44,708 nucleotides of DNA, taken from contig JABJJO010000221.1 in the NCBI GenBank assembly GCA_018660825.1, positions 1 to 44,708 of the forward strand, in the 5' to 3' direction. Of the stretch, positions 1,034 through 38,113 are shown piece after piece (positions within the stretch are counted from its first letter, which is position 1; every line of letters starts with the position of its first letter). The position numbers were made by a program, and so were the translations under genes. The stretch is from Planctomycetaceae bacterium (GTDB taxonomy: Bacteria > Planctomycetota > Planctomycetia > Pirellulales > Pirellulaceae). The notes under the pieces were generated by a model that saw only the letters and a list, made by a program, of their open reading frames with translations, did not search any database and had not been told where the DNA came from.

Positions 1034-2482
1034 TTAGAGCACTAACTCTTTGATGACTTGTGCCGGCAGCACACCAGTGAGCCGTTGATTTAAGCCTTGG
1101 TACTTATATGACAATTGTTCGTGATCATAACCTAGCAATTGCATAACCGTGGCATGGAAATCACGAATGTGTACCGGTTCATTAACGATATTGTAGGAGA
1201 AGTCATCGGTTTCCCCATAGATGGTACCACCCTTTGTACCACCGCCAGCCATCCACATGCTGAAACAGCGTGGGTGGTGATCGCGACCATAATTCGTCAG
1301 CGACAAATTTCCTTGCGAATAAATCGTACGACCGAACTCGCCACCCCAGATAATTAACGTATCATCAAACATCCCGCGTTGTTTTAAGTCTTCAATCAAC
1401 GCTGCACAGGGTTGATCCACATCTTTACATTGGCTCGGCATCCGTCCGGCTACATTACCGTGATGGTCCCAATTGTTGTGGTAAATTTGGATAAAACGGA
1501 CACCGCGTTCAGCCAATCTCCGAGCCATCAAGACGGTATTGGCGAACGTGCCCAACTTCTTCGCTGCTTCACCGTATAACTTGAAGGTGTGATCTGACTC
1601 AGTACTTAAATCCGTCAACTCAGGCACACTAGCCTGCATTTTAAACGCCATTTCATATTGTCGAATCCGAGTTTGCGTTTCTGGATCACCGACCGCTTCA
1701 AAATTAATCTCATTTAACGCATTGATATTGTTGATCGTACTTTTACGGATCGCCGCGGGAACGCCAGCAGGATTATTAATATATAGAATCGGATCACCGG
1801 CGCTGCGGAAAGAGACACCCGCGTGCTCACCCGGTAAGTAACCGCTACCCCACAACCGAGAAGAAATCGCTTGCTCTTGGTCACGATTACTTGGCACAGC
1901 CACTAACACAACAAATGCAGGAAGATTTTCGTTGTCAGACCCTAATCCATATGAGGCCCATGATCCTAAACACGGACGCCCCGGTACTTGATTTCCTGTC
2001 TGCATCGCCGCGATCGCTGGTTCATGATTGATCGCTTCGGTGTGCAGCGACCTCATCCAACAGATGTCATCTGCTTTTTTTGCTAGATTAGGCAAAAGTT
2101 CCGTATTCATCATCATGCCACATTCACCCGCTGGGCTAAACTTAAATTTTGTGGGCGCGATAGGGAATCTTTTTTGGCCACTGGTCATGGTCGTCAAGCG
2201 TTGACCTTTACGAATCGAATCTGGTAGATCTTTGTCGTAAAAATTTTTCATCTTGGGTTTGTGATCGAATAAATCCATCTGCGCCGGACCACCAACCATG
2301 TGCAAATAAATTACTCGTTTCGCTGTGGCTGGGAAGTGGGTTTTAACAACGCCTTCACCTGCCGCTGCGGACGAACCACTTCCCAGTAGCGAACCGAGGG
2401 CGGCAGTTCCTAATAAATTCTTGCCCTGCGAGAAAAACTGTCGACGCGTTTGCAACGTTTTGTATTCTTCAATGATATTCAT
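1034..2482 (-). CDS. DUF1501 family protein (Tat-exported, sulfatase-like fold)
   Basis: About 482 residues. The N-terminus has a twin-arginine-like signal (TRRQFF followed by a Gly/Ala/Ser-rich hydrophobic stretch). The body carries DUF1501 hallmarks: MVGGPAQMDLFDHKP near the start, NNWDHHG, WGGEFGRT and NYGRDHHPRCF. DUF1501 is related to the alkaline-phosphatase/sulfatase superfamily but has no firmly established reaction. It is typically encoded beside a DUF1549/DUF1553 cytochrome protein, as here, where that gene lies directly upstream. The frame can extend to a TTG at 2494, but I chose the ATG at 2482 because GGAA lies about seven bases upstream of it. Confident in the family; function unknown. 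Confidence 0.88.
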   Translation of the reverse strand: MNIIEEYKTLQTRRQFFSQGKNLLGTAALGSLLGSGSSAAAGEGVVKTHFPATAKRVIYLHMVGGPAQMDLFDHKPKMKNFYDKDLPDSIRKGQRLTTMTSGQKRFPIAPTKFKFSPAGECGMMMNTELLPNLAKKADDICWMRSLHTEAINHEPAIAAMQTGNQVPGRPCLGSWASYGLGSDNENLPAFVVLVAVPSNRDQEQAISSRLWGSGYLPGEHAGVSFRSAGDPILYINNPAGVPAAIRKSTINNINALNEINFEAVGDPETQTRIRQYEMAFKMQASVPELTDLSTESDHTFKLYGEAAKKLGTFANTVLMARRLAERGVRFIQIYHNNWDHHGNVAGRMPSQCKDVDQPCAALIEDLKQRGMFDDTLIIWGGEFGRTIYSQGNLSLTNYGRDHHPRCFSMWMAGGGTKGGTIYGETDDFSYNIVNEPVHIRDFHATVMQLLGYDHEQLSYKYQGLNQRLTGVLPAQVIKELVL

Positions 2483-2561
2483 AGGAATTTCCAATACACC
2501 TTAATCGAGCTTCGGGTAATATTTTTCTATTGGTCTCTATTCGTTGATTACTTTACGGTTC

Positions 2562-5500
2562 TTACTTGTTAAGGACTTCATCTAAATTCAAGATCTGATT
2601 GCAAACCATCGTCCAAGTTGCCAGTGTTACATCGTCCATCGATTCATCGACTTTCGATTCACCCACTGCCAAAAGTGATTTAGCATCATCTGCATGGGCT
2701 TGATAATATTCGTGCAAATGCTGTTTACTGGATTGAACAATCTCTAATTCGCGATCTTTCAACGCTCTACTGAGCGCACGATCCGTGACAAAGTCAATCA
2801 TTGCTTGGTCACTGCCATCTGTTTCAATAAGCGCAAGTTCAGCGAGTTTTCGAGCAGCCTCGACAAATTGTGGGTCATTTAATGTAATCAAAGCTTGCAG
2901 AGGAGTGTTTGTGCGCTCTCGACTCACAGCGCAATATTCGCGGCTTGGGGCATTAAACGCTTCCATGTTTGGCGGAGGTGCCATCCGTTTCCAAAAATGG
3001 TATACCGTACGGCGGTATAGATTCTCGCCTTTGTCCTGAACATAATTTCGAGTATTGCCACTGGGTAAACCTACCACATCCCAAATGCCCGTTGGTTGGT
3101 ATGGCTTCGTGCCTGGTCCATACATTTTGCGTGACAATAGCCCGCTAACAGACAGGGCATAGTCACGTACCATTTCTGCATCCATGCGAAAACGCGGTCC
3201 ACGTGAAAGCAACACATTGTCGCGGTCTAGGACGATTTTTTCTTTAGTTACAGTCGCCGCCTGGCGATAAGTCGCGCTGGTCAGCATCAACTTAAATAAC
3301 TTTTGTACATCCCAACCGCTATCACGAAACTCTAGTGCCAACCAGTCCAGTAACTCTGGATGGCTAGGATCTGCACCCATCACACCAAAGTCTTCCGGAG
3401 TGGTGACAATCCCGCGGCCAAAGATTTCTTGCCAAAAGCGATTCACGGTAACTCGTAGCGTAAGTGGATTCGCTGGATCAACAATCCACTTTGCCAACCC
3501 CATGCGATTATTCGGCAAATCATCGGCGAATGGATGCAACGAAGCTGGAGTAGCCGCCGATACTTGTTCACCTTTTTTATCATATTCGCCTCGCATCAAA
3601 ATATAAGCCATCGCCTGCGAATCTTGCTTCTCGACTTGGACATGCGTCACGGCGCTACGAGCCTCAATAGCCGCTTTCTCTTTTTCTAGCTCACCAAGTG
3701 CTTTTTGGAGTTTTGGATACTGTTGATCGTTATTATTCAAGTAATAGTTCAATAAGATTTGGGTTTGTTCTTTACTGCGATCTGCCTGAGCAATCGATAG
3801 AATTTCCTGCAGTGGTGCGGCTTCACCTATCATCTTGACGTCTTGTGCCAATAATTGATGATCATAGATACGAACATCCTGCACGCTGCCGCCTTCGAAA
3901 ACAGCGCCTTGACTACGCTGACCCACTCGTAATGGCGTCTTCGTGCGAATCGTTGCGTCTGGTTTGATATTGTTTGTTGCAACAGTTAATTTAGTTTCTG
4001 CGCCATTCACGTATATTTTGATACCCTCGGGTTTGGCAGTTCCATCATAAGTCACAAACACATGTTGCCATTTCCCAGCCTTGACTTGGGCCCCCGTGGT
4101 GAGGACCTTAATTGCATTATCTGGCCATTCTTGAACCATATGCACGGCAAACTCACCTCTGTCTTGCCATAAATCCCAACCGCGATGTTTGGCCTGTTCG
4201 TCCATCCGAGCAATGATTCCACTGCCGCCATCAGTCTTTACAGTTTTGACCCAAGCACCATAGCTGAACGCCTGGTCTTTTTCAAAATCTCCCAACCCGC
4301 CAAGATCAAATGTATTGCCCGCTTTAATCACTGGTGCCGAGGCCGTCCGTCCATTGGCAACCCAAGTCACATTACCTGTTACCTTAACGGGTTCCGCATC
4401 TGCGATTTGATTTGTAACTGTGTTTCCCGAACCTTCATTTAGCGGAAGATTAACAACCAATCCCTTCGTCGGTAATTCTAGCGGGACGGTTTCTTTTTCC
4501 GTTACGTCGAGCCATTTATTAAACCCCGCCTGGGCAATAAGTTTTCTTTCATCGCGAGCTTTCCCAGCCGCTGTGATTGCCGCAGGTAATGCTGCCAGTC
4601 TTTCTCGATCTGCTTCTAAGGGGACCTTAATGACTGGGCCGCGACCATCTTTGATGTTGCCATCCTTGGGACCTTGCGTCGTGTTACGGAAAAATGCTGC
4701 CAGGGAATAATAGTCCTTCATCGTAATCGCATCAAACTTGTGGTCATGACATTGAGCACAGTTCGTCGTTATCCCAAAATAGACCCAACCAATCGTTTGC
4801 ACTCGGTCAGCCGCATAATTGGCCAGATTTTCTTCGTCAATCGTGCCACCTTCGTTCGTGGTAATATTGCAACGTTGGAAACCTGTAGCAATAAGTTGGT
4901 CCGTAGAAGGCTTTGGCAGCAAATCACCTGCAATTTGCTCAATGGTAAATTGATTAAACGGTTGATTGGCGTTGAACGAACGAATAACCCAATCGCGATA
5001 AGGCCACATCTCACGATAGTTATCAAAGTGCAAGCCATGAGTGTCCCCATAGCGAGCGGCGTCAAGCCAATACCGCGCACGGTGTTCACCCCATGCTGAT
5101 GTCTGCATCAATTTGTCGATCCACCCACCGAGAACTTTGTCTCTATTTTCTTTGCTGCCACGATATGCTGCAACAAAATCAGCAACATCTTCAGCTGCTG
5201 GAGGCAAGCCTGTGACATCTAGATGTACACGTCGAAACAACTGAGCGGGTGAAGCTTCCGCAGCCGGTGAGAGACCTTCTTCTTGTAGACGCGCTAACAC
5301 AAAACGATCAATGCCATTTTTTGCCCAACTTTTTTTACGAGCCTTGGGTAGTTCCGCTTGCCGTGGTGCAATTAACGACCAATGTCGCTGGTATTCGGCC
5401 CCTGCGGAAATCCAACGTTTGAGGATTTCCTTTTCTTCCGCGGTAAGTGTTTTCTTAAGCTCCGCCGGTGGCATGATCAGTTCGGCGTCGTCAGTCAACA

Positions 5501-12659: not shown

Positions 12660-12745
12660 GAATGGGGTATTGCTGAATTCGGCGTTTTGTTACTAATACA
12701 AAAACGGAATAAATCAGACCAATCTAGTTGCAGGCCATATTAACC

Positions 12746-14713
12746 GTGCTTCCTTTTAAATACCGCAGCGATATCGATGGGTTACGAGCAGTCGCTGTAC
12801 TATTGGTACTGCTTTTTCATACCGAATGCGGTTTTTCCGGTGGATACATCGGCGTCGACGTGTTCTTTGTAATTTCGGGATTTTTGATAACTAGTCTGAT
12901 CATCAAGAATCAACAAAAAGAACAATTCAGCTTGGCGATGTTCTGGGGGCGTCGCATCAAACGCATTGTTCCCGCGGCCTTTGTTGTTGTCGTTGTGACC
13001 TTACTCGCAGGCGCTTGGATACTACTTCCAGAGGATTACGAACAACTCGCCGAGTCGACCACTTATCAGCAACTGATGCTTGCCAACAATTTCTTTTATC
13101 GAAACCTCAACTACTTTGACGGACCCTCGGAAACGAAGGCTCTGCTACATACTTGGTCACTCGCCGTCGAAGAACAATTCTATTTGGTGTTCCCGCTTCT
13201 TTTGATACTCTTGCGTCGGTACTCCAACCGTATAGCAGCTTCAATTCTAGTCACCCTCGCAATTATATCGTTTGGCTACAGTCATTGGGCCACCAGCAAC
13301 GCACCCGCAGCCGCATTCTTTTTACTCCCATCACGAATGTGGGAATTACTAGTCGGAGCCCTCTTGGCCTACGCTCCGCAACCAAAATCAAAATCAAAAC
13401 TATGGCAGGAATTTGCTAGTTTCGTGGGGATCGCCGGGATACTAGCTGCCGGTTTGCTATTCGATGCAACCACACCTTTCCCAGGCGCGGCCGCACTGAT
13501 TCCTTGCCTCGCTACTGCGTTGATAATCTACAGTAGCGCCAACACACAAACAAAGATTGGCAAGCTGCTCTCCTATAAAGGAATCGTTTTTATCGGTCTG
13601 ATTTCATATTCATTGTATCTGTGGCATTGGCCCATTTTAGCCTTCTTGCGTTACAGCACGAACCAACCGTTGACCACCGCATCACAATGTACCGCAATCG
13701 GATTAAGTTTTCTCTGTGGTTGGCTATCATGGAAATATATTGAGACGCCTTTTCGCCAAGGTTTTCAACACATCAAAATGTGGCGAACTCTCACTATCAC
13801 GGTTGCTTGTGCGACGGTGTTAATCATCACCAGTGTCTGGATTGATTATTCCAAGGGATTTACCTGGAGACTGCCTGCGGAAGTTTATCAGTTAATCCAA
13901 GACAACGACGTACCCAAACGATTTCGCAGTACCACCGATCAAGTTAAAACGGGCGACCTACCCCTACTTGGATCGACAGACAACTCACAACAGCCTATCG
14001 ATTTTCTTGTGTGGGGCGATAGCCATGCGATGGCGATTGGCACATTAATGGAAGACTTAGCGACTGAAAATCAACTACATGGCCGCATTGCAGCACGATC
14101 ATCTGTAACGCCGCTAGTTAATACATGGCGCAATGGTAAGCGCGACATATCGTCTCTGTGGAATGACGAAATTCTAAATTACATACAGCAACACGAAGTG
14201 CAAAATGTAATTCTAGTTTCACGCTGGGCCGTGGGGGTTGAGGGGAGACTCGATGGCGACTTGTCACCACTACTCTCTGACAAACAGACAACCTCCAAAT
14301 CCACCAGCGATGCTCGACAAGTCTTTAAACGGCAGTTGTATGAGACGCTGCAGAGGCTATCAAGTTCTGTACAACGTGTGTTTCTCATTGAGCAAGTACC
14401 GTGTCAAACTCTGAATCCCGAATATGAAGTTGTACGTGCGGTATTGAACAACGAGGATATTCCAATGGGAGTTACTCTAGAAACACATCAACGACGCCAA
14501 CACCACACACACACAATCATGTTGCAAGTCACTGCGAAGTTTAAAAACGTATTTCTCGTGGATCCAGCTGCACACTGTTTTAATGAACACAATCAATCTA
14601 TTATTGCCGTCTCTCGTGGCGTTCTCTATGCCGACGAGAATCACGTTTCACCCTTGGGCGCTGAAGTTTTATTTCGACCTGCGCTGAAACCGGTGATCGC
14701 CAATTTCAAATAA
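12746..14713 (+). CDS. OafA/YrhL-like membrane acyltransferase (acyltransferase-3) with C-terminal SGNH domain
   Basis: About 655 residues. The N-terminal half is an acyltransferase-3 domain with about ten membrane helices. Helix 1 carries the family R-X10-H motif (GLR...FHTECG), followed by GGYIGVDVFFVISGFLI and HTWSLAVEEQFY. The C-terminal part is an SGNH hydrolase-like domain with the GDSH block (WGDSHAMA, near residue 426) and a DENHVS block near the end. The two-domain form acetylates surface polysaccharides such as O-antigen, passing an acyl group across the membrane to the periplasmic SGNH domain. The frame extends to TTG at 12728; I prefer GTG at 12746 because the product then begins close to the conserved YRSDIDGLR, but no clear SD decides it. 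It stands alone, with no other polysaccharide genes nearby. Confidence 0.87.
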   Translation: MLPFKYRSDIDGLRAVAVLLVLLFHTECGFSGGYIGVDVFFVISGFLITSLIIKNQQKEQFSLAMFWGRRIKRIVPAAFVVVVVTLLAGAWILLPEDYEQLAESTTYQQLMLANNFFYRNLNYFDGPSETKALLHTWSLAVEEQFYLVFPLLLILLRRYSNRIAASILVTLAIISFGYSHWATSNAPAAAFFLLPSRMWELLVGALLAYAPQPKSKSKLWQEFASFVGIAGILAAGLLFDATTPFPGAAALIPCLATALIIYSSANTQTKIGKLLSYKGIVFIGLISYSLYLWHWPILAFLRYSTNQPLTTASQCTAIGLSFLCGWLSWKYIETPFRQGFQHIKMWRTLTITVACATVLIITSVWIDYSKGFTWRLPAEVYQLIQDNDVPKRFRSTTDQVKTGDLPLLGSTDNSQQPIDFLVWGDSHAMAIGTLMEDLATENQLHGRIAARSSVTPLVNTWRNGKRDISSLWNDEILNYIQQHEVQNVILVSRWAVGVEGRLDGDLSPLLSDKQTTSKSTSDARQVFKRQLYETLQRLSSSVQRVFLIEQVPCQTLNPEYEVVRAVLNNEDIPMGVTLETHQRRQHHTHTIMLQVTAKFKNVFLVDPAAHCFNEHNQSIIAVSRGVLYADENHVSPLGAEVLFRPALKPVIANFK

Positions 14714-30184: not shown

Positions 30185-31222
30185 TTAATCCAGTGGATCT
30201 TGATGCATGCGAACCGCAAACACCATCTTGTGGGTTTTTCCCGTGCGAATGTCAAAATAGACGCTAAAAGTGGCGTAAGGTACGGGGGTTCTAGAGTAGC
30301 GAGGCCGAGTCGTGACTAAGGCAGACTTGACAATACAATTGTCATGCCACGATTGGCGAATGAGAACAGGATTGGCTACGCTCAACGTAAGATTGTTCTG
30401 TTTGCAAATCGCTTTAATTTCGGATTTTCTTGATGCAAGTATTGCTTGAAAAGTTTGATCCAACTCTGCCTCTTTCCATTGATGTTCAATCGGTTTGATA
30501 CGGGCATTGTTCATATTGAAATGATGGATTTTCAACTTCTCTTTTTGAGGGTAGCTGAGTTCAGGGCGATTGGGAACAATCTTCACAGTGAACATCGCTA
30601 TCTTGCTATCTGTCAACCGACCCCATCGGAGTGGAGCTCGCACAGAAAACAGTTGTTGTAAATTGAGGGAATCGTTGCCTAAATTGTCACAATACAAAGT
30701 CACCTTTGTGGACGAATCTAAATGGGCAAAGGGCTGAGGGAGAGTGTCTCCAAAAATCACCGCCAGGGTCAACTTTGGCTTTGCAATGGGGGTATTCTCC
30801 TGGTCGAACACTGAATTGGTGTATTGGCGAATTTCCGGAAGTTTCTCGATTCGCTTGGTAAAACGAGGTAATAAATATTCAGAAATATATTTTTTATTTT
30901 TGGGATCCGACTCATCGAGAAAATAAATGCGCCAGTGCGCGTGTCGGGGCCAAGTTAGATGTAGCCAGGGCGGGTCGAGTAGGTGAACGTCATTGGTCGA
31001 TGCGTTGTATCTCCCCAAAAAAGTTACAGTCTTTCCGGCTCTGAGATGCGCACGATTTGAATACATCGCAACGCCAGCCGACCCAGAATGGATCCCATCA
31101 GGTCGCACGACTTCGATGTATGTCTTTTTGTCCGCTGATACCTGTATCGAGACAAGCAACAAAGTAACAACGGTCGCAATAAATAAAATCTTCATATTGA
31201 CTATTATAGTAAAAAGTTTCAT
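30185..31222 (-). CDS. Secreted protein of unknown function
   Basis: 345 residues from the ATG at 31222, or 336 from Met10 (31195), which gives the cleaner signal peptide (MKILFIATVVTLLLVSIQVSA-DKK). Neither start has a clear SD; the ATG at 31222 overlaps the stop of a 34-codon frame by ATGA. The mature part is mixed beta with many aromatics (PPWLHLTWPRHAHWRIYFLDE) and a C-terminal beta stretch (YATFSVYFDIRTGKTHKMVFAVRMH). Only a few cysteines are present and there is no CxxCH. I recognise no domain. It lies on the opposite strand between the Cus operon and the Rrf2 gene, convergent with cusA, and has no evident functional link to either. Confidence 0.65.
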   Translation of the reverse strand: MKLFTIIVNMKILFIATVVTLLLVSIQVSADKKTYIEVVRPDGIHSGSAGVAMYSNRAHLRAGKTVTFLGRYNASTNDVHLLDPPWLHLTWPRHAHWRIYFLDESDPKNKKYISEYLLPRFTKRIEKLPEIRQYTNSVFDQENTPIAKPKLTLAVIFGDTLPQPFAHLDSSTKVTLYCDNLGNDSLNLQQLFSVRAPLRWGRLTDSKIAMFTVKIVPNRPELSYPQKEKLKIHHFNMNNARIKPIEHQWKEAELDQTFQAILASRKSEIKAICKQNNLTLSVANPVLIRQSWHDNCIVKSALVTTRPRYSRTPVPYATFSVYFDIRTGKTHKMVFAVRMHQDPLD

Positions 31223-32622: not shown

Positions 32623-33558
32623 TTAATGGTCGTGTCCCGCATGACCTTCTTGTACATCATGTTCGTGCGAGTCGTGTTGCTGATGCTCGTCAGGTGCAGG
32701 ATGATCGTGCGAGTGCATCGACTCAATGCCCACTGCTAACAGTAATCCCAGTATCAGAGCAGCCGTTAATTTCCCGCGATCATGCGAGTGAAAAGCAACC
32801 TCTGGTAACAAGTCACTCAAGGCAATACACAAAAAGAAACCGGCAGAAAATGCTAAGGCAATACCAACGAGCGTCTCATGTTCACCCGCAAATTGCTCTG
32901 CACCGAACCAAAACAATACGGCACCCAATGGGCATATTAGTGCGAACACGATATTGATCATCGTCCGCATGCGTGACGACCACGAAGCAGCGTGCATCAG
33001 AGAAGTAATGGCGAGTGCATCGAGTGGTTTATGCAAGAACACAACTAAGAAAGTACCGAGCCCTAAAAATATCGCTCCTGTTGCACCGTGTCCAATCTCG
33101 GCAGTTACACTCGCAGAAATTGCCACTCCGTCAAGCAACGAGTGAATTGCAAGTCCAACGAACAATCCGATCCAGCTGAATTGATGAGCATCACTTTTTG
33201 ATTCATCACCCCCAACAGGTTCATGGTGGTGATCATGTTCACAATCATGCCCGTCAGTGGCAGCATGCGAGTGCACGTGAAAGACTCGTAACAAGAAAAA
33301 CATCACCAGCAACCCACCCAACATTGCCCCGCCGGCTAATGATGCGGATTTTAGGTGTTCCAAAGAAGCGGGCAGCATATGCAACAACGCAACGCCTAGC
33401 ATCACACCGGAAACCAAACTCATCATCAATTGCCGCTTAAGATGATTCAGTTTCACCAGCGATGGCAACCAACCACCGGCCAACGATGCAGCAATGGTAA
33501 ATACGCAATAAACAATAATAGTTACAAACGGTGACATAACCCTAAATTGTAGGGGCAC
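32623..33558 (-). CDS. ZIP-family divalent metal transporter with His-rich loop and tail
   Basis: 311 residues from a GTG with GGAG seven bases upstream (33566-33569), which supports it over the ATG at 33537. Eight membrane helices are expected. Helices 4 and 5 carry the ZIP metal-site motifs HSLLDGVAIS and HKPLDALAI. The loop before helix 4 is rich in histidine (HVHSHAATDGHDCEHDHHHE), and the C-terminal tail is mostly His, Asp and Glu (HSHDHPAPDEHQQHDSHEHD). ZIP proteins move Zn(II), Fe(II) or Mn(II) into the cytoplasm; the His clusters favour zinc. It is convergent with the DUF3365 gene and completes a metal-handling region, although no shared regulation is visible. Confidence 0.88.
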   Translation of the reverse strand: MPLQFRVMSPFVTIIVYCVFTIAASLAGGWLPSLVKLNHLKRQLMMSLVSGVMLGVALLHMLPASLEHLKSASLAGGAMLGGLLVMFFLLRVFHVHSHAATDGHDCEHDHHHEPVGGDESKSDAHQFSWIGLFVGLAIHSLLDGVAISASVTAEIGHGATGAIFLGLGTFLVVFLHKPLDALAITSLMHAASWSSRMRTMINIVFALICPLGAVLFWFGAEQFAGEHETLVGIALAFSAGFFLCIALSDLLPEVAFHSHDRGKLTAALILGLLLAVGIESMHSHDHPAPDEHQQHDSHEHDVQEGHAGHDH

Positions 33559-33649: not shown

Positions 33650-35668
33650 CTAAATCGAGTCAATCGACTCAATATGCTTTGCCGGCGCTGCTCTCACCTT
33701 TTTTCCGTTGAGCATGGTACCGATGGGCGTGTACCTGACCAAATATTCATACATCACCAGTAAAGTAACCGTACAAACCGTACAAACCAATACAAACTTG
33801 AGCGTCCCGTCCAGATCCCAGTCACTAATGAACCATTGCAGCCAGATCATCAAAGGAAGGTGAGCTAGATAGAGCCAATAGGACGAGTCGGAAATATAAC
33901 GCATCCATTTGTTCTCCGCTGACATCAGTTTGCGAAACAAACCAATGAGACCAAACGTCATCAACCAAACATACAACACCTGAATAACAACCGAGATCGT
34001 TTGCTGCAGGAACTTGGGCATATCTTCAAAAATCCCCGCATCTCCGGTTTCAATTCCCGCTCCAATGAAGAACAACAACAGGGCAACAGGCAGGGTAATA
34101 TACCAACGACTTCCCAATTCCCCTCGGATGTCCGCGCAGTCAAAATAAAGCGCTCCAAATCCAAAGAAAATTGCATAGTAAAACAGTAAATGTGGGAAAG
34201 GAATCAAACCGACCGATGTATCCGGACCAAACCCGGGGCCCATAAACGCTTGCGGAATGATCGTAACAGGAACTAACCACAGATACCTTAACGGTGACAC
34301 GATCAGCAAGTTTGGTAAGGACTCAATACCAACAAGTTTTGCAAACATGGCATAGACAGCAAACCCACCTACTAACCAACACAGGAACCACAGAAACCAC
34401 AGGTGGTGAAAAACAGGGGTGAGCATTGCATGAAATCCAGTCTTTACATTCCAAAAATCCCCCAGCACGATCCACCAATAGACTTCGGTAAGGCTTGGTA
34501 TCTCTTCTCGATCCTTGCCGACGCCCGCCTCAACCTTTAAAACTGATGCCATTTCGGGACGCGATTTACGAACATCGTGTTGTCGAACATCAATGGTCAT
34601 CAGCGCGGCAATATAATCAACCGCTCCACCTTGTTCTTTGGTAAATGGACGCGTCACGTAATCGGTTGCTTTTTCACCCTTGTTATTCCTAATCGTCACA
34701 TCGACTTGATAATCCATCAGTACCCGAACAACATCGACACGTCCAAAAAACACAGCCCCATGTAACGCTGTTCCCCCATCCTCATTTTGAGCGTTCACGT
34801 CGGCTCCTGCCTCAAGCAACAACGTTGCTACCTGCGGATGCCCAAAAATCGATGCAATGCTCAAGGCCGTCGCAGTATCCCGTCGTTGCCCAGGGTCTGC
34901 TCCCTGCTCCAACAACTGACCAACCAGCTCATGATCACCACGTTTGATCGCATCAAAAAAATCGCCTTCGACCCAAACCTCACAACTGCTGGGCTTGTCC
35001 GATTCGGACTCCTTCATGGCAGTTTCGAGGGCTTCAACGACCTGAGGGTGTTGGAAAATTCTCGCTGTCTCCAAAGCGGTTACGTTATCCAGATTACGGT
35101 AAAACAAGTCCGCTCCCTCAGCAATCAAGAACTCGACCGCTTCCGTTTGCCCAACAGAGGCCGCCACAATCAGAGGCGTCGATTGTCGCTCTTGGTCACG
35201 AGCATTGATATCCACGCCACTTTTGAGAATTTCCTTCAGTGCCGCAACATCTCCAAATACCGCCGCCCACCAAATATTCGCGTCGTCACTCACCTCCTTC
35301 TTTAGCACTTCTGGCTGACGAGCCACCATTTCTGAAACCCAGTTCATCGCTGGGATGACTGTTACCAAGCCAACCATACAAGGCAAAAAGATTCTTAGAA
35401 AACGATGTTTCAGCAGACTTTGCAATCCACGTTTTCGCCAAAGCATGGCAGTAAAAAAACCACTCACTAGGAAAAACAAAGGCATGCGAAAACCATGAAT
35501 CATCGCAAAAACCGATCCCAACCACGGTGCCTGATTCGCATCCTGCACAGCCCACGGGAATCCCGTATAGGCTAACAACCCGTGCAACGCGATTCCTAAC
35601 AACATCGCAATCGCTCGCAAAGCATCTAAATCATGTCTGCGTGAAAATGATTCTGGTGGACTGCTCAT
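33650..35668 (-). CDS. Membrane acyltransferase (acyltransferase-3/OpgC-like) interrupted by an ankyrin-repeat block
   Basis: 672 residues. Helix 1 (about 15-35) has the acyltransferase-3 R-X10-H motif (Arg18, His29); helix 2 (about 55-75) has FRMPLFFLVSGFF. A basic loop (RKRGLQSLLKHRFLRIFLP) and helix 3 (about 93-110) follow. Residues about 130-345 form ankyrin repeats (STPLIVAASVGQTEAVEFLIAEGAD; TALSIASIFGHPQVATLLLEAGADVNAQNEDGGTALHGA). The transferase resumes at about 415 (HHLWFLWFLCWLVGG) with the remaining helices and SYWLYLAHLPLMIW. By the positive-inside rule the repeats would be periplasmic. The substrate is unknown; relatives acylate glucans or polysaccharides. No frame break is seen, so this is one protein, about 250 residues longer than usual. 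Confidence 0.85.
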   Translation of the reverse strand: MSSPPESFSRRHDLDALRAIAMLLGIALHGLLAYTGFPWAVQDANQAPWLGSVFAMIHGFRMPLFFLVSGFFTAMLWRKRGLQSLLKHRFLRIFLPCMVGLVTVIPAMNWVSEMVARQPEVLKKEVSDDANIWWAAVFGDVAALKEILKSGVDINARDQERQSTPLIVAASVGQTEAVEFLIAEGADLFYRNLDNVTALETARIFQHPQVVEALETAMKESESDKPSSCEVWVEGDFFDAIKRGDHELVGQLLEQGADPGQRRDTATALSIASIFGHPQVATLLLEAGADVNAQNEDGGTALHGAVFFGRVDVVRVLMDYQVDVTIRNNKGEKATDYVTRPFTKEQGGAVDYIAALMTIDVRQHDVRKSRPEMASVLKVEAGVGKDREEIPSLTEVYWWIVLGDFWNVKTGFHAMLTPVFHHLWFLWFLCWLVGGFAVYAMFAKLVGIESLPNLLIVSPLRYLWLVPVTIIPQAFMGPGFGPDTSVGLIPFPHLLFYYAIFFGFGALYFDCADIRGELGSRWYITLPVALLLFFIGAGIETGDAGIFEDMPKFLQQTISVVIQVLYVWLMTFGLIGLFRKLMSAENKWMRYISDSSYWLYLAHLPLMIWLQWFISDWDLDGTLKFVLVCTVCTVTLLVMYEYLVRYTPIGTMLNGKKVRAAPAKHIESIDSI

Positions 35669-35863: not shown

Positions 35864-38113
35864 ATGACCGCTGACAGCCCCAAAATAATCTACACCAAAA
35901 CAGATGAAGCTCCAGCGTTGGCGACACAATCATTATTGCCCATCGTCCGTGCCTTCACACGATCTTCGGGCATCACCATTGAGCTCAAGGATATTTCGCT
36001 TGTTGGAAGAATTCTGGCAGCCTTCAGTAATCAACTCCCCTTAGAACAACAACAAGTTGACGCACTTGCCGAACTTGGAGCCCTCGCCAAAACACCTTCT
36101 GCCAACATCATTAAGCTACCCAACATCAGTGCCTCAGTTCCACAACTTAAGACGGCCATCGCTGAATTGCAATCTCACGGCTATGCGATACCAGATTTTC
36201 CCGAAGAGCCGGAAACCGATGCCGACAAAGAAACTCGCGCTCGCTATGCCAAAGTTCTCGGCAGTGCTGTAAATCCAGTTCTCCGCGAAGGCAATTCAGA
36301 CCGTCGCGTGGCAGCTCCTGTCAAAGAATACGCCAGAAACAACCCGCACAGCATGGGCGCATGGAGTAGTGATTCAAAAACACATGTTGCCCACATGTCG
36401 GGTAATGATTTTTTTGGTAGCGAACAATCTCATGTAATGGCAACCGCCACCGCCGTTAGCATCGTCCTCGTTGCCGATGATGGTAGCTCAACATCGCTGA
36501 AGGAAAACCTGCAACTCTTACCAGGCGAAGTCATCGATGCCTCGGTCATTAGCTGCACCACGCTTAAGTCATTTTTTGCTGAGGCCATGGACGATGCTCG
36601 CAGCCAAGACATTTTGCTTTCTCTACATATGAAAGCGACCATGATGAAAGTCTCCGATCCCATCATTTTTGGACATGCCGTCGATGTCTATTACGCAGAC
36701 GTATTCACCAAACACGCCGCAATACTTGAACCTCTGAACATCGACACCCGCAACGGCATTGGCGATCTGTATAGCAAAATCAGTGAACTTACCGTGGAAC
36801 AACAAGCTGAAGTCCAAGCTGACATCAAGGCACTTTCTGCAACTCGACCACGACTCGCCATGGTCGATTCAGACCGTGGCATCACCAACCTCCACGTTCC
36901 CAGTGACGTAATTATTGATGCCTCAATGCCAGCAGCGATTCGCTCCTCGGGTCAAATGTGGGGCCCCGATGGCCAACTTGCGGATACTAAAGCAATGATT
37001 CCCGACCGTTGCTATGCGCGGATCTACCAAACAGTCATCGACTTCTGTAAACAAAATGGTGCCTTTAATGTGACCACGATGGGCAACGTTGCCAATGTTG
37101 GTTTGATGGCACAAAAAGCAGAAGAGTATGGGTCACATGATAAGACTTTTGAAATCCCTCATGCCGGAACCGTACAAGTGATTGATACTGACGGCACAAC
37201 ATTACTTGAACACACCGTCAGTGCAGGTGACATTTGGCGAATGTGTCAAACCAAAGATGAGCCAATCAAAGATTGGGTTCGCCTCGCGGTCAGTCGTGCT
37301 CGCGCCACCGGATCAACTACGATTTTCTGGCTCGACAGCGACCGCGCTCACGACAACAACCTCATCGCCAAAGTCAACGAATATCTACCACTGCATGACA
37401 CCACTGGACTTGATATTCAAATTCTATCGACCACCGCAGCAATGCAATTAACTTGCCAACGGTGCCGCGATGGACTCGACACAGTATCCGTTACCGGCAA
37501 CGTACTACGAGACTACCTAACCGACCTGTTTCCAATCATCGAATTAGGGACCAGTGCAAAAATGCTGTCGATCGTGCCTCTGCTATCCGGCGGCGGACTT
37601 TATGAAACCGGTGCCGGTGGTTCTGCCCCCAAGCATGTGCAACAATTTCAAACTGAAAATCACCTGCGTTGGGATTCACTCGGTGAATTCCTCGCAATCG
37701 GAGTTTCCTTGGAAGAACTAGCTGAAAAAACCGATAACAAAAAGCTTACACTTGTCGCCGCCGCATTAAATCAAGCTAGTAGTCAATATCTAACGGAAAA
37801 CCGCTCGCCATCTCGAAAAGTAAATGAACTGGACAATCGTGGTAGCCATTTCTATCTAGCACTTTACTGGGCTCAGACGCTGGCAACTCAAACTGCTTGC
37901 CCTGAATTGCAAGCAGAGTTTTTGCCATTGGCAACAACACTCGCTGAAAATGAACAAACGATCGTCGATCAACTCATTGCCGTGCAAGGTGAAGCTGTCG
38001 ACCTCGGTGGATATTATCACCCCTGCGAACAATCAGTTGTTACGGCCATGCGACCGAGCACCATTTTCAACGATGCCATCGATGGATTTTCTGGCGACGG
38101 CAACGAACACTAG
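35864..38113 (+). CDS. icd: NADP-dependent isocitrate dehydrogenase, monomeric type
   Basis: 749 residues, the normal length for the monomeric (IDH-II) form and nearly twice that of the dimeric enzyme. The N-terminus ([26 protein letters not shown]), [12 protein letters not shown], the [19 protein letters not shown] segment that contacts isocitrate and metal, and ATTMG-like and WLDSDRAHD stretches are all family-specific. It converts isocitrate and NADP+ to 2-oxoglutarate, CO2 and NADPH in the cytoplasm (TCA cycle). No strong SD is visible. It precedes the aldo/keto reductase gene by 46 bp; nearby PutA also feeds glutamate/2-oxoglutarate metabolism, though on the other strand. Confidence 0.94.

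Follow-up and report, generated by a model that had tools for sequence, protein, structure and literature searches.

The gene at 33650..35668 (minus strand) of the window, by which we mean the whole 44,708-nucleotide stretch of DNA that was analysed, encodes one enzyme of the acyltransferase-3 family (AT3; Acyl_transf_3, PF01757, TmAT superfamily) whose chain is split after the third transmembrane helix (TMH3) by ~290 residues, made of six ankyrin repeats (residues ~130-325) and a helical C-cap (~330-385). The enzyme is likely to export acyl groups, and we put at about 60% the probability that the module in its loop serves to dock a periplasmic partner, or the acceptor itself, at the pore exit, deciding what is acylated and when.

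An AT3 enzyme interrupted by ankyrin repeats

The open reading frame (ORF) starts with ATG and encodes 672 amino acids. As the first-pass annotation had proposed, the R-x10-H motif and three helices, then the ankyrin repeats, then the remaining helices follow one another in a single frame, an arrangement borne out by Pfam, by HMM alignment and by an AlphaFold2 (AF2) model; the strand is corrected here to minus. The N-terminal AT3 part (residues 1-118, 35315..35668, minus strand; Pfam match 12-112) comprises TMH1, TMH2 and TMH3, and the AT3 motifs can be read directly from its sequence, D15xxR18-x10-H29 in TMH1 and R89xxR92 in TMH3. The ankyrin region (residues 130-338, 34655..35281, minus strand), defined by the Pfam Ank families and AF2, contains six helix pairs in two triplets and the start of the cap. 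The helical C-cap itself (residues ~330-385, 34514..34681, minus strand) has no Pfam match of its own in the window protein. The C-terminal AT3 part (residues 420-672 and the stop codon, 33650..34411, minus strand) carries TMH4-TMH10 according to Pfam and the AF2 helices. The ~215 ankyrin residues of the first-pass annotation thus match residues 130-338, except that the end of this region belongs to the distinct cap, which had been overlooked.

Acyl_transf_3 matches the window protein in two stretches with 97.7 bits (cut-off 31), and Ank_2 matches between them with 99.5 bits (cut-off 27.3). The AT3 model breaks at a single seam: the part ahead of the insert matches model positions 2-98 and the part behind it 93-320, and each exceeds the cut-off by itself. 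The AF2 model, built from an 84-row alignment, has a pLDDT of 87.8 and a pTM of 0.79. It shows helices 12-34, 48-80 and 82-102 before the insert, the six ankyrin helix pairs as triplets 132-220 and 236-319, a helical cap at 336-376, and seven helices after the cap, within 421-644, which are taken as TMH4-10 (461-473 is short). This gives ten transmembrane helices (3 + 7, with high pLDDT), their membrane assignment being a reading of the model rather than of coordinates. When loop lengths are compared with those of homologues, the insert loop of the window protein measures 307 residues.

The repeats are tandem 33-residue helix pairs by Pfam and AF2, and they align with solved ankyrin chains at Z 16.6-18.0 (VIA-align) among the 50 matches listed, for example at Z 18.0 with an rmsd of 2.1 over 122 aligned residues. 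The structure matches listed for the full model are ankyrins. The AT3 C-terminal half alone gave none at E <= 0.001, its best structure match being MurJ (Z 5.0, rmsd 11), which we read as noise, and its sequence found nothing in the PDB at E <= 1. No TmAT structure is among the matches listed for the full model or the half, which says nothing for or against the fold. An ankyrin effector of the Dot/Icm type was considered and rejected, as all NCBIfam matches of this kind listed are far below cut-off and have only the repeats in common with the window protein.

The motifs R-x10-H in TMH1 and RxxR at the cytoplasmic face of TMH3 are described as typical of AT3 proteins (PMC9833829). Among 93 nonredundant homologues (see below), R-x10-H is present in 93/93 and the full DxxR-x10-H in 92/93, the exception being L066, whose ORF as delimited begins downstream of the Asp; RxxR is present in 92/93, L066 having a Trp for the second Arg. 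The best AT3-type NCBIfam match is OpgC/MdoC (NF003014), with 120.2 bits in two stretches. This score is below the equivalog cut-off of 338, no OpgC_C Pfam match is listed for the window protein, and MdoG has 0 matches in its own genome (96.6% complete), with a profile that does match E. coli among 14 control genomes. The identification as OpgC, the succinyltransferase of periplasmic glucans, was therefore rejected; the likeness is that of the closest named AT3 family, from which the window protein differs by its score, its ankyrin insert and the lack of MdoG in its genome. Pfam finds no SGNH domain in the window protein. A canonical AT3-SGNH acyltransferase, with both Pfam domains over cut-off, is encoded elsewhere in the window (12728-14713, plus strand); it is one of four AT3 proteins found in this genome.

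Conservation and ancestry of the insert

The closest homologue, L006, a named metagenome-assembled genome (MAG) record from another assembly, is 85% identical and has the identical architecture. A second close relative, L087 (genome G007; 87% over the matched part), is identical to L006 and lies inside it, so that the two are one contig and only one close homologue is independent. Between the window and L006, dN/dS (Nei-Gojobori) is 0.11 for the N-terminal AT3 part, 0.21 for the insert and 0.15 for the C-terminal AT3 part, which indicates that selection keeps the insert, slightly more loosely than the enzyme. Acyl_transf_3 together with Ank and Ank_2 in one protein, the combination for which the first-pass annotation had suggested a search, is matched in 84/84 rows of the alignment (A1). 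The two-domain matches, the insert dN/dS and L006, alike in a separate assembly, rule out that the fusion arose by chance or from the assembly join considered at first.

A scan of the GTDB genome collection (84,980 species) detected relatives at 193 loci, and the 80 best were retained. By record title, these 80 comprise 52 Planctomycetota, 14 Verrucomicrobia, 4 Latescibacterota, 4 Gemmatimonad, 1 Poribacteria, 1 Armatimonadetes, 1 Thermoanaerobaculia and 3 unlabelled loci; Rhodopirellula, Stieleria and Thalassoglobus are among the names in the homologue records. The Latescibacterota- and Gemmatimonad-labelled loci have common neighbours, hence some of the MAG labels are doubtful. The idea of a planctomycete architecture holds in so far as the family exists and is mostly found in Planctomycetota, but it extends to Verrucomicrobiota and other labels.

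The 115 loci examined contain 106 ORFs that have both AT3 halves, 3 of these ORFs being the window itself. Of the 103 others, 98 were N-terminally complete; adding the window and removing 6 near-identical sequences left the 93 homologues used above. Three of these 93 (L106, L111 and L115) have no ankyrin insert in the loop and were either left out or exchanged for more complete loci. The tree was enlarged by 17 sequences, namely 11 relatives that have no ankyrin, 5 long paralogues and the full version of L106, L126. In the resulting tree of the AT3 core (359 columns, 107 leaves), one clade of 96 leaves (support 0.894) unites all 95 insert-bearing proteins and L126, which has no insert in the loop. 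The first-pass annotation had named full-length homologues sharing the insertion point as support, and they exist: the insert lies between TMH3 and TMH4 in 95/95 insert-bearing sequences. Since the tree is midpoint rooted, a single insertion is its simplest reading rather than proved. This count treats L141 (G014:C608) as lacking the insert; otherwise L139 joins too. L141 is an AT3 relative whose TMH3-4 loop contains 137 residues of low complexity, rich in Gly, Pro and Phe, with no ankyrin, and it indicates that this loop accepts unrelated inserts. Loop lengths among the 95 sequences range from 152 to 438, with 79/95 within 160-219; the long-loop paralogues have 437-438 residues in four genus mates and 406 in G012.

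The rearranged homologue L126 (1394-3901, minus strand), from genome G040, is nested in the insert clade as the sister of L070 (support 0.934). Its module is close to the N-terminus, preceded by a signal peptide recognized by eye, and is followed by extra transmembrane helices, of which three or five would fit, and by an uninterrupted AT3 domain (Pfam 429-806). These data bear on the view that a tolerant periplasmic loop simply gathered a repeat domain without functional coupling to the enzyme. The insert of L141 in the equivalent loop, the variable length of the inserts and the G040 AT3 domain, free of ankyrin in its loop, would all agree with such a passenger. However, the insert is under purifying selection and was kept in 95 sequences of one clade under several phylum labels, and in G040 the module has moved elsewhere in the chain and not been lost. 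We consider this explanation improbable.

Location of the repeats and proposed mode of action

In AT3 proteins the TMH3-4 loop is described as long and periplasmic, and it helps to delimit the acyl-CoA pore in simulations of OafB (PMC9833829). In the window protein, the inside loops contain 2, 3, 0, 2, 3 and 5 Lys + Arg residues and the four short outside loops 0, 0, 0 and 0, with transmembrane borders that we set from the AF2 helices. The insert loop contains 30 Lys + Arg in 318 residues, and the positive-inside rule discounts such long loops. The module is also found on proteins other than AT3 enzymes (see below), and the N-termini of these carriers point the same way: a hydrophobic segment is present in the first 80 residues of 15/16 non-AT3 carriers vs 133/309 control ORFs, a contrast weakened by the partial kinship of the carriers and by uncertain start codons. 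The 16 are those non-AT3 carriers whose N-terminus could be read, after exclusion of 5 open-ended ORFs; the sixteenth, L187, has a single transmembrane helix at ~145, and the lipoboxes and signal peptides of the carriers were read by eye. From the charge pattern, the AT3 topology papers, the carrier N-termini and the G040 signal peptide, we infer that the insert lies on the periplasmic side of the membrane, which supports the placement outside the cytoplasm made in the first-pass annotation.

Most familiar ankyrin proteins are cytosolic. Were the repeats of the AT3 proteins cytoplasmic as well, they might bind a cytosolic partner on the donor side, and the protein kinase gene that adjoins the AT3 gene in some loci would suit this arrangement; the four lines of evidence just given stand against it and make it very improbable. 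An outside location was at first thought unusual for ankyrins, and precedents temper this view. Bd3460 of Bdellovibrio is described as a periplasmic ankyrin protein that binds and blocks enzymes there (PMC4686830), and AnkB of Pseudomonas as another periplasmic ankyrin protein, so that the location by itself is not new. Both resemble the present module as exported bacterial ankyrin repeats, and differ from it in that, by their descriptions, they stand alone, with no fusion to a membrane acyltransferase.

AT3 proteins are thought to move acyl groups from cytoplasmic donors to acceptors outside (PMC9558356, PMC9833829). Given the intact motifs, the acyl group would pass from cytoplasmic acyl-CoA through the ten-helix domain to an outside acceptor. 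The periplasmic TMH3-TMH4 loop, bordering the pore as in the OafB model, would hold the ankyrin repeats and cap like a lid, and the module might dock a periplasmic partner, or an acceptor that is proteinaceous or protein-bound, over the pore exit. The docked module could then gate transfer, in a manner comparable to the lid role proposed for SGNH in OafB. The first-pass proposal, that the module docks or recognizes a substrate in the acylation of surface polysaccharides, may likewise apply.

The AT3-SGNH enzymes of the OafB and OatA type offer a close parallel, since they also join an AT3 membrane domain and an extracytoplasmic partner domain in one chain, and this second domain is believed to finish or direct the transfer (PMC9558356, PMC9833829). 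In contrast, the SGNH domain is an enzyme that follows an eleventh TMH at the C-terminus, whereas here a repeat module without known catalysis lies within the TMH3-4 loop. A review (PMC9558356) poses as an open question how AT3 enzymes function in the absence of SGNH and whether a partner protein is required. AT3 enzymes with an extracytoplasmic partner domain and periplasmic ankyrins are thus known already, and the pair Acyl_transf_3 + Ank is probably annotated in UniProt/InterPro. Searches of an open-access collection that were aimed at this architecture listed no paper on an ankyrin-bearing AT3 protein, and the word ankyrin is absent from three AT3 papers; in the papers searched we met neither the union of AT3 and ankyrin in one loop nor an ankyrin + cap common to unrelated envelope proteins. 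If the module on the pore side does bind proteins, its soluble form used as bait could find the acceptor or the controller of the enzyme.

The ankyrin and cap module on other proteins and the gene neighbourhood

The cap has a partial consensus, G-x-T-P-x-D ... W ... I-A-x-x-L ... V-x-x-G-R ... L, and a cap model was built from 29 rows of AT3 and non-AT3 carriers (alignment A2). It matches 37/98 genomes at E <= 0.001 and 18/246 genomes drawn over the phylum at E <= 1e-5, the genome of the window being included in both counts and some matched genomes having supplied rows, so that they match by construction; the weakest matches are confined to its ankyrin end. The gene studied here scores 65.6 bits, its own sequence being part of the model. 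By Pfam, the non-AT3 carriers include CotH proteins (L176, L204), PQQ_2 propellers (L179, L183, L028), a glyoxalase (L188) and a sulfatase with two modules (L201). A protein of the seven-bladed-propeller type (L177; Lactonase just over cut-off, YNCE just under) also carries the module, and its relatives show CxxCH haem motifs by eye. Further carriers are ankyrin proteins with a lipobox (L186, L190) and two-module proteins with an anti-sigma-like N-terminal part that has no Pfam name (L082, L187). By its sequence, the ankyrin + cap is a mobile module common to acyltransferases and unrelated, apparently exported proteins. In a genus mate (G007:C203), L132 (1866-3776, plus strand), cut by the contig end, combines a lipoprotein-like N-terminus, ankyrin repeats and a multi-transmembrane region, and appears to be another exported-type ankyrin membrane protein.

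A Phe (in 'AAF') occupies one helix position of the last repeat of the module, ahead of the cap, in 61/76 scored AT3 copies and 29/36 scored other copies, compared with only 9/91 of the other repeats of these proteins (19 AT3 and 5 other copies were unscored, and 5/41 of the others are truncated AT3 ORFs). This residue is F307 in the window protein, and its position is one that we take to belong to the usual ankyrin binding face. The ankyrin surfaces differ from one homologue to the next, and conservation is highest mostly at framework positions, hence one common ligand is not demonstrated. The presence of the module on apparently exported proteins suggests a hitherto undescribed system for docking on the outer side of the membrane. 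That it is a mobile extracytoplasmic docking module of planctomycete-type bacteria, gathering envelope enzymes and regulators round a common partner, is a possibility that we put forward tentatively; the acyltransferase would then be a frequent membrane-anchored member of a set that includes propellers, sulfatases, CotH proteins, lipoproteins and anti-sigma-like proteins. The common cap provides a sequence handle on this exported ankyrin system, for which the Pfam scans show no model.

The genome of the window (96.6% complete) gave no further Ank_2 match and no second cap match. A tether to sibling ankyrin proteins was therefore rejected as a general role, and the partner in this genome is unlikely to be an ankyrin protein, unless it is encoded in the missing few percent. 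An ankyrin lipoprotein gene does precede the long paralogue in G001 and G002 (L127, L128), and these lipoproteins have no cap match. The long paralogues L127-L131 and L092 score <12 bits with the first cap model, and a second cap model matches one long paralogue (G001:C236, E 2.4e-5).

Several types of neighbouring genes recur, in a minority of loci, among flanking ORFs that were chosen by length and are partly spurious. In a cluster of kinase genes, 12/15 members lie immediately upstream of the AT3-ankyrin gene on the same strand, and 10/11 kinases recognized by motif among 464 flanking ORFs (71 loci) do so. Pfam confirmed Pkinase in L037, L056, L052 and L009, the last one gene further away; the upstream Ser/Thr kinase genes are at 2647-4494 (L037, transmembrane by eye), 2883-4919 (L056) and 1993-4827 (L052), all on the plus strand. 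ECF sigma genes are found on the same strand <=3 ORFs upstream in 10 loci, of which L080 and L082 are near-identical, and were confirmed by Pfam in L066, L057, L082, L049 and L042; in some loci the upstream kinase follows an ECF sigma gene. In L082 the sigma and AT3 genes flank a gene for an anti-sigma-like single-transmembrane protein with two modules; no anti-sigma Pfam label was found for this protein, the name resting on resemblance and on the upstream sigma gene. Module carriers adjoin the AT3 gene in L028 and L179 (PQQ type), L063 (single transmembrane helix) and L080/L082. Genes of the propeller/haem type adjoin it in L045, where Pfam finds no ankyrin, and in L079 and L080/L082, where there is no cap match (the L079 and L080 copies are cut).

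These kinase and sigma neighbours, and the two-module protein of L082 placed between, would fit a sensor, in which the module binds an envelope ligand such as a glycan, a peptide or a stress product and thereby activates the acyltransferase, within an envelope response under ECF-sigma or kinase control. Most loci, including the window, nevertheless have no adjoining kinase or sigma gene, and the kinase-linked loci may be one lineage; we regard a sensor as rather unlikely and prefer a module that docks a partner or acceptor at the pore.

In the window, the fusion gene is followed downstream, at 91 bp, by a ZIP metal transporter gene (32623..33558, minus strand), and a monomeric isocitrate dehydrogenase gene (35864..38113, plus strand) is divergent from it. 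Close to the AT3-ankyrin genes of L006 and L044 there is likewise a divergent isocitrate dehydrogenase gene, and L006 has the same ZIP neighbour (95% identity over 234 residues). A 345-aa ORF of the window (30185-31222, minus strand), hydrophobic over a stretch at its N-terminus, matches no family of Pfam or NCBIfam, and an ORF of equal length with a similar start follows the ZIP gene in L006.
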